Shown piece after piece: positions 30,474 to 32,108 of a stretch of 44,510 nt of DNA (position 1 is its first letter; every line of letters starts with the position of its first letter). Both the position numbers and the translations under genes were made by a program. This stretch comes from Clostridiales bacterium (GTDB lineage Bacteria; Bacillota; Clostridia; Caldicoprobacterales; DTU083). Under the pieces are notes generated by a model, which saw only the letters and a program-made list of their open reading frames with translations, did not search any database and had not been told where the DNA came from. Location of the stretch: the NCBI GenBank assembly GCA_012838915.1, contig DUOI01000062.1, positions 1 to 44,510 of the forward strand, in the 5' to 3' direction.

Positions 30474-31088
30474 ATGTCTGACTTTGTAAAATATCTGCTG
30501 GTTATTCTGATCAGCTATCTCATAGGAAATTTTGCTCCATCCTACTTTATGGGGAAAATCGTAAAAAACATCGATATCCGGGAGCATGGCAGCGGAAATG
30601 CGGGAGCAACCAATGCCTTTCGCGTATTGGGAGCTTTAGCCGGAGGTATTGTGTTTATTTTCGATGTTCTGAAAGGTGTGCTGGCTGTTCACCTCGGCCT
30701 TTGGCTAACCGGCAGCAGCCTGGGAGGCATGGTGGCGGGAGGCATGGCTGTTATCGGACATGACTGGCCTGTTATGCTTCGTTTCAAAGGCGGGAAAGGC
30801 ATAGCCAGTTCCCTTGGGCTGGTGCTGGTATTGTTCCCGAAAGTCGGTCTAATCCTGCTTGGATTTGGACTTGCAGTGATTTTTATCACCAGGTATGTTT
30901 CCCTTGGTTCCATATGCGCAGTCGTTCTGTGCCCCATTCTGTTGGTTGTATTTGGTGAGCCCGTGGAGCTTTGTTTGATTGCTGTTATATTGGCAGCGAT
31001 AGCGGTGCTGCGGCACAGGGAAAACATCCTGCGCATGTTAAAGGGAACGGAGAATCGGATTTCATTTTCAAAAAAGAGGGGAAGGTGA
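30474..31088 (+). CDS. plsY: Glycerol-3-phosphate acyltransferase PlsY
   Basis: Membrane enzyme that transfers an acyl group from acyl-phosphate to sn-glycerol-3-phosphate, the first phospholipid step. About five membrane segments; the three conserved motifs are REHGSGNAGATNAFRVLG, GHDWPVMLRFKGGKGIAS and a late GEPVEL-type loop. 204 aa, normal. It lies directly before gpsA, which makes its substrate; its TGA stop overlaps the ATG at 31088 by one base. Confidence 0.96.
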   Translation: MSDFVKYLLVILISYLIGNFAPSYFMGKIVKNIDIREHGSGNAGATNAFRVLGALAGGIVFIFDVLKGVLAVHLGLWLTGSSLGGMVAGGMAVIGHDWPVMLRFKGGKGIASSLGLVLVLFPKVGLILLGFGLAVIFITRYVSLGSICAVVLCPILLVVFGEPVELCLIAVILAAIAVLRHRENILRMLKGTENRISFSKKRGR

Positions 31089-32108
31089 TGGGCTATTACT
31101 ACAACAATTGCAGTAATCGGTGCAGGAAGCTGGGGAACCGCGTTGGCGGTTCTTCTTGCGAAAAAAGGATATAAGGTGAATCTTTGGGTTTATGAAGAGG
31201 ATGATTACCAGGCCATAACGAGGGAAAGGGAAAATCGGCGCTATTTACCCGGCATTTCCATTCCTTCCAATGTGGATGTTTATTTTGAGCTGAAACACGC
31301 TGTTCGAAAACAGGATGTAATACTGTTGGCGGTTCCTTCCCACGCTGTCAGGGAGACAGCCCGGAAAATCGCGGCAGATGTCGTTAACAAGCCCATTATC
31401 ATAAATGCGGCAAAGGGCTTGGAGGAAAATACCTACAAACGGCTTTCCCAGGTAATTGGCGAAGAAATTCCTCAAGCCCGTATAGTAGTACTATCCGGCC
31501 CCAGCCATGCGGAGGAGGTAGCTCAGGATATTCCGACAACTGTGGTGTGCAGCTCGGAGGATTCGGAAGCGGCAGAGCGGGTACAGGATATATTTATGTG
31601 TCCCAGTTTTCGGGTATATACCAATTCGGATCTGATCGGTGTGGAAACCGGCGGTGCATTAAAAAATATCATAGCATTGGCAGCCGGAATCTGTTATGGA
31701 CTGGGTTACGGAGACAATACCAAAGCGGCATTGATGACCCGGGGTGTATACGAAATGGCCAAACTGGGTCAGGCTGTTGGTGCCTCTGCACTGACCTTTG
31801 CCGGTCTGTCGGGTATCGGAGACTTAATAGTGACCTGCACCAGCATGCACAGCCGAAACCAAAGAGCGGGAATCCTCATCGGCCAAGGGAAGTCAACGGA
31901 GGAAGCTCTGACGCAAATAGGCATGGTGGTGGAAGGCGTGAAAACCTGTAAGGCTGCTTATGAGCTGGCTCAGAGCCTGAATATAGAAATGCCCATTACC
32001 GAACAGTTATACCGAATTTTATACGAAGGAAAGGATCCCGCATCGGCGGTGAATGACCTGATGCTGCGGGATAAGACCCATGAAAGTGAAAAACTTGTGG
32101 TTCCTTAG
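31089..32108 (+). CDS. gpsA: NAD(P)H glycerol-3-phosphate dehydrogenase, start disrupted by a frame problem
   Basis: Reduces dihydroxyacetone phosphate to sn-glycerol-3-phosphate for phospholipid synthesis. The frame is open from 31089 and encodes the whole enzyme, beginning ITTTIAVIGAGSWGTALA (Rossmann loop), then the LSGPSHAEEVA and GGALKNIIALAAG (catalytic Lys) blocks, ending near ESEKLV. The only well-placed ATG (31088, after GGGGAAGG) is in another frame; deleting one G from the GGG at 31090-31092 would join it to the gene as ATG GCT ATT. In-frame choices are ATT 31095 or TTG 31143, the latter losing the NAD loop. A sequencing error, a real mutation, or a rare ATT start could explain this. 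Product identity is certain; the start is not. Confidence 0.85.
   Translation, partial: WAITTTIAVIGAGSWGTALAVLLAKKGYKVNLWVYEEDDYQAITRERENRRYLPGISIPSNVDVYFELKHAVRKQDVILLAVPSHAVRETARKIAADVVNKPIIINAAKGLEENTYKRLSQVIGEEIPQARIVVLSGPSHAEEVAQDIPTTVVCSSEDSEAAERVQDIFMCPSFRVYTNSDLIGVETGGALKNIIALAAGICYGLGYGDNTKAALMTRGVYEMAKLGQAVGASALTFAGLSGIGDLIVTCTSMHSRNQRAGILIGQGKSTEEALTQIGMVVEGVKTCKAAYELAQSLNIEMPITEQLYRILYEGKDPASAVNDLMLRDKTHESEKLVVP

Follow-up and report, generated by a model that had tools for sequence, protein, structure and literature searches.

The window analyzed here is a stretch of 44,510 nucleotides from a Clostridiales bacterium (contig DUOI01000062.1) that contains the genes der, plsY, gpsA and spoIVA in that order. 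The junction between plsY and gpsA comprises the following features.

30474 to 31088, + strand: plsY, glycerol-3-phosphate 1-O-acyltransferase (TIGR00023, 164.5 bits, cut-off 137.2; PF02660)
31076 to 31081, + strand: outer purine-rich stretch GAGGGG, named in an earlier sequence-only reading and read directly from the sequence
31083 to 31089, + strand: extended Shine-Dalgarno core AGGTGAT, complementary to the 16S 3' end
31088 to 31174, + strand: out-of-frame 28-codon frame with ATG at 31088-31090, translation MGYYYNNCSNRCRKLGNRVGGSSCEKRI and a stop that ends at 31174
31095 to 31097, + strand: ATT, proposed gpsA initiation codon (ATT in the window genome, G000, and in relatives G001, G003 and G005; ATA in G002)
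31095 to 32108, + strand: gpsA, NAD(P)H-dependent glycerol-3-phosphate dehydrogenase, 337 amino acids if read from ATT
31119 to 31136, + strand: GAGSWG, loop of the NAD-binding GxGxxG type, 24 nt 3' of the first ATT base
31143 to 31145, + strand: TTG, first canonical in-frame start, within GTALA and 3' of the NAD loop

Sequence and layout of the plsY-gpsA junction

The gpsA product scores above the cut-off of the equivalog profile NF000941 (1.2e-149, 498 bits, cut-off 423), with residues 3-332 aligned to profile positions 2-334 of 336, and contains both Pfam domains (PF01210 and PF07479) as well as the GxGxxG loop. The second-best gpsA match in the genome is only 30% identical over 104 residues and thus the gene in the window is the sole clear gpsA that was found.

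A direct read of positions 31076-31100 gives GAGGGGAAGGTGATGGGCTATTACT. The plsY stop codon TGA (31086-31088) sits within the gpsA Shine-Dalgarno sequence and is separated by 6 nt from the ATT at 31095. The gpsA frame, which is shared with plsY, is open from directly behind this stop to 32108, and a scan of this frame 5' of the NAD loop for ATG, GTG or TTG found none before the TTG at 31143. When read from ATT 31095 the N-terminus of GpsA would be (M)TTTIAVIGAGSWGTALAVLLAK. The anti-Shine-Dalgarno duplex energy for the region 20 to 3 nt upstream of this ATT is -14.8 kcal/mol, with the genome mean for ATG starts being weaker at -9.8 kcal/mol. The sequence-only reading had described this Shine-Dalgarno sequence as leading to an ATG at 31088 that is off the gpsA frame and stops after 28 codons, and had described a gpsA frame that is open from 31089 but lacks a canonical start before 31143; both descriptions, including their coordinates, are borne out by the sequence. 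The 28-codon frame is absent from relatives, is not part of gpsA, and gave no match in a Pfam search. No internal promoter or terminator was found in a + strand search of the plsY-gpsA interval, and folding of 31050-31139 for a regulatory hairpin returned structure that was not above chance (z = 0.08). Folding was also run on stretches from two relatives which end just before the ATT and are hence less informative.

Conservation of the gpsA start column

The window genome belongs to an uncultured family of Clostridia that is represented by 13 genomes, 9 of which have a clear gpsA. Comparison with close relatives, which the sequence-only reading had proposed, reveals that four other genera share the ATT or ATA anatomy at the codon located 24 nt before GAGSWG. 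The same column is occupied by ATG in the sister genera G004, G010 and G007 and in most order-mates, and by GTG in order-mate G023. In all five genera with ATT or ATA, the plsY TGA lies inside a Shine-Dalgarno AGGTGA that is followed by 5-6 bases and then by the ATT or ATA, with the sequences that precede the loop being AGGTGATGGGCT-ATT, AGGTGAGTCGAG-ATT, AGGTGAGGATC-ATT, AGGTGAGCAGTC-ATA and AGGTGAACAGAC-ATT. The codons before this column differ among the five (TGG GCT, GTC GAG, AGG ATC, GCA GTC and ACA GAC), as do the bases that follow AGGTGA and the codons that follow the column, so that AGGTGA and the ATT or ATA are what stays constant. Four-fold degenerate sites differ by 41-65% in species pairs among these genera. 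Thus, given this divergence and the variable flanks, selection appears to maintain the ATT or ATA at this column. The absence of a canonical start, a constant column between variable flanks, and a strong Shine-Dalgarno sequence at suitable spacing are together the pattern of a conserved non-canonical start.

The plsY-gpsA pair of other Clostridia resembles the one described here in gene order and in protein, but differs in the start itself. Among 91 distinct gpsA genes examined, nearly all of them from Clostridia, there are 87 in which the 20 codons that precede the loop include a canonical in-frame start (ATG, GTG or TTG). The remaining four are the window gene and three relatives from the same family, all of which fall in the clade with ATT or ATA. 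In this clade the start column holds no canonical codon and the plsY stop lies inside the Shine-Dalgarno sequence, whereas in the canonical pairs of G004 and G010 there are 18 nt between the plsY stop and the gpsA ATG. The sole canonical codon in G003, the fifth member of the clade, is an in-frame GTG inside AGGTGA that is 9 nt upstream of the ATT. This GTG could be the start in G003, which is a point against initiation at AUU.

The five genera group as one clade (support 100/98) in a tree built from 26 GpsA proteins, and the distribution of ATT and ATA on this tree needs one change as compared to a mean of 4.7 in shuffles. Because the clade is monophyletic, the distribution fits a single ancestral change from ATG to ATT or ATA that has since been retained. 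Two further observations come from the wider set of genomes. The gpsA match in L022 (G057:C31) is interrupted by one TGA and one TAG and may be frameshifted or damaged. Additionally, contigs C106 (L014) and C101 (L123) of G025 each hold a full-length gpsA match of nearly the same score, and the pair represents either a duplication or a mixture of strains in the bin.

Proposed initiation at AUU

We propose that gpsA is an intact gene whose translation begins at the non-canonical AUU at 31095, which would be placed by an extended Shine-Dalgarno sequence that holds the plsY UGA. We assign this reading, which is drawn from sequence comparison, a probability of roughly 90%. The extended Shine-Dalgarno AGGUGA (31083-31088) would position the ribosome for AUU, where initiation is expected to be weak and to be helped by this pairing. 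Initiation of gpsA is probably also partly or largely coupled to termination of plsY six bases upstream. At the AUU itself, initiator fMet-tRNA would pair through a third-position mismatch of a kind that IF3 normally rejects and, for this reason, GpsA output is predicted to be low and sensitive to IF3. What the sequences show is the anatomy, its conservation in five genera, its confinement to one clade and an infC with the same layout; initiation at AUU and coupling to plsY are probable, a low yield and IF3 sensitivity are predicted, and by analogy with known systems control of gpsA by IF3 is plausible. In the window species, the out-of-frame ATG at 31088 is under the same Shine-Dalgarno region and might capture some of the ribosomes.

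Initiation of this type is already known and gpsA is a new gene for it. In E. coli, the infC gene that codes for IF3 has an AUU start, and PMC1780047 describes discrimination by IF3 against this codon as the basis of autocontrol, with a change from AUU to AUG abolishing that control (Butler et al. 1987, as cited there). The window gpsA has an AUU start as does E. coli infC, but it codes for a metabolic enzyme and is probably coupled to plsY, and its possible control by IF3 is suggested by the layout that it shares with infC. A second AUU start in E. coli is that of pcnB (Binns and Masters 2002, as cited in PMC13009471 and PMC1780047), which is similarly a gene outside of translation and which is described there as being kept low by its AUU; the gene and the pathway differ from those of gpsA. 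Ribosome profiling of S. aureus has mapped AUU and AUA starts that lie behind extended Shine-Dalgarno sequences (cvfC1 AUU, ccpN AUA and infC AUA). In reporters such starts yield about 10% of AUG output, with ccpN reaching up to 30% in rich medium, and the ccpN start is conserved to B. subtilis (PMC13009471). The gpsA start shares with these a conserved non-canonical codon and an extended, start-proximal Shine-Dalgarno sequence. However, the S. aureus starts are proven by ribosome profiling, and for cvfC1 and ccpN also by reporters, while that of gpsA is a prediction from sequence. The gpsA gene is not mentioned among the non-canonical starts of S. aureus (PMC13009471), and a search of the available literature found no paper that links gpsA to an AUU start codon. 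As regards coupling, re-initiation becomes less efficient the farther the start lies from the stop, and a Shine-Dalgarno sequence helps it (PMC2268962).

Alternative explanations

The alternative that survives best accepts the AUU start as real but regards it as tolerated drift that is sustained by a strong Shine-Dalgarno sequence and by coupling, with no regulatory role. A single substitution on one branch could account for its origin, and strong coupling may leave the identity of the codon nearly neutral. However, only one more substitution is needed to restore ATG, GTG or TTG, and none of the five genera (0/5) has made it despite heavy silent divergence. This lack of reversion suggests selection for a weak start, so we regard neutral drift as a genuine possibility that is nevertheless not the one we favor.

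The sequence-only reading had preferred a one-base frame break, caused by either an error or a strain mutation, and had placed a rare, possibly regulated start at ATT 31095 third and last. The comparison with relatives reverses this order, as G001, G002, G003 and G005 lack the out-of-frame ATG and yet have ATT or ATA at the column. As judged from the shared sequence layout, the gene most likely has a conserved AUU start and not a frame break, and conservation over five genera supports what had been the least favored option. An error in sequencing or assembly would consist of an extra G in the GGG at 31090-31092, with the real start being ATG 31088. Runs of G are common error sites, and deletion of one base does bring this ATG into the gpsA frame. 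However, four assemblies from related genera have no ATG there and three of them have no canonical start at all; G001 also matches LFTC01000011 and G005 matches DUOA01000086, which come from separate projects. A single error cannot explain an anatomy that is shared by independent assemblies of four genera, and we consider an error to be very unlikely.

Readthrough of the plsY TGA to give a PlsY-GpsA fusion is just as improbable. The two genes do share one frame with a single TGA between them in G000, G001, G002 and G005. In G003, however, plsY ends in another frame so that no fusion can form, and yet the ATT is retained. Furthermore, readthrough does not require ATT or ATA at the start column, and it would join PlsY, a membrane protein, to GpsA, which is normally soluble.

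More improbable still is a loss-of-function mutation in this strain that would make gpsA a pseudogene or a gene in the process of being lost. The missing canonical start is in its favor, but all 337 codons are open, the product exceeds the equivalog cut-off, no second clear gpsA was found in the genome, and GpsA remains 73-81% identical to relatives despite the 41-65% difference at four-fold sites. A frameshift or pseudogene is marked by a disruption that is absent from close relatives, whereas here sibling genera have the same layout with an intact frame. A start at TTG 31143, the first canonical in-frame codon and the choice of an automatic gene finder, is equally implausible, since the resulting short GpsA would lose the GxGxxG NAD loop and the first 13 positions of PF01210 (which would begin at position 14, with a fall of about 35 bits from 188 to 153), the Shine-Dalgarno pairing is weak at -5.5 as compared to -14.8 kcal/mol at ATT, and the codon at this position is CTG in G002 and G003.

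Genome-wide survey of start codons

To our knowledge few AUU and AUA starts have been documented, and they tend to be regarded as oddities of infC and pcnB. That such a start is kept in a phospholipid gene over five genera suggests that these codons can be selected in ordinary metabolism. Starts in the window genome were surveyed over 1.30 of its 2.18 Mb (about 60%). The 1,025 genes in this portion whose 5' end is complete were scored on codon usage and on the pairing of the Shine-Dalgarno sequence, and non-canonical starts were penalized. The best canonical starts were 802 ATG, 127 TTG and 96 GTG. Clear ATT starts, with a wide margin and strong pairing, were found for infC, rny (RNase Y) and gpsA (3 of 1,025). 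When all 58 non-canonical sense codons were run as decoys, ATT gave three strong genes and every other codon at most one. Most of these single hits appear to adjoin the same ATT codons (AAT and AGT at infC, GCT and ACT at gpsA, CCC and CAA at rny), and further single hits are those for CTA and CGA. The gpsA gene is therefore one of a handful of ATT-start genes in this genome.

The layout of gpsA resembles that of infC, which in the window genome has GGAGGTGA followed by 6 nt and ATT (L217, G000:C80, position 14096, - strand). The same GGAGGTGA and six bases precede ATT or ATC in most members of the family (L127-L137), nearly all of which, among those shown, have no ATG, GTG or TTG near the N-terminus; G002 has ATG AAT ATC instead. 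The ylxQ gene, which codes for an L7Ae-type RNA-binding protein (L272-L284), has ATT, ATC, ATA or GTA at a fixed column behind GGTGA, with ATT or ATC in most members. In G000 and G001 a stop codon cuts off the ATG upstream from the ATT, and in most other members an in-frame ATG could serve as the start. A more speculative extension, which we consider rather unlikely, is that IF3 sets a small regulon of AUU and AUA starts in this family that includes infC, RNase Y, YlxQ and, in one clade, GpsA. If true, the strength of the start codon would by itself make mRNA decay and the supply of phospholipid precursors depend on the state of translation initiation.

These starts also affect annotation. Gene finders limited to ATG, GTG and TTG would cut GpsA to TTG 31143 with loss of the NAD loop, and would likewise assign wrong starts to infC and rny. 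What looks like a frame break at a start codon should also be checked in relatives before an error is assumed. Weaker survey candidates that were not counted as clear have ATA or ATC in genes for an aldo-keto reductase, a HAD phosphatase, PurR and an Asp/Glu racemase. The purR gene (L257, position 11686, - strand) and the Asp/Glu racemase gene (L249, position 12376, + strand) have no well-placed canonical start, with ATC, CTG or TTG being possible starts for both.

The rny start lies behind GGAGGTGTACC and two bases in the family (L258-L268), with ATT in 9 of 11 members, ATA in one (G012) and TTG in one (G007); that of the window genome is at position 11253 of L143 (G000:C6, - strand). Other families of the order have GTG or apparently ATA. 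Within the first ~25 codons of rny (L287-L310), unusual synonymous codons are kept across the order (CTA CTA ... GTC/GCC CTG GTA GTA GCC ATT). This conservation apparently exceeds what the protein needs and resembles that of a signal embedded in the RNA, which might serve in autoregulation.
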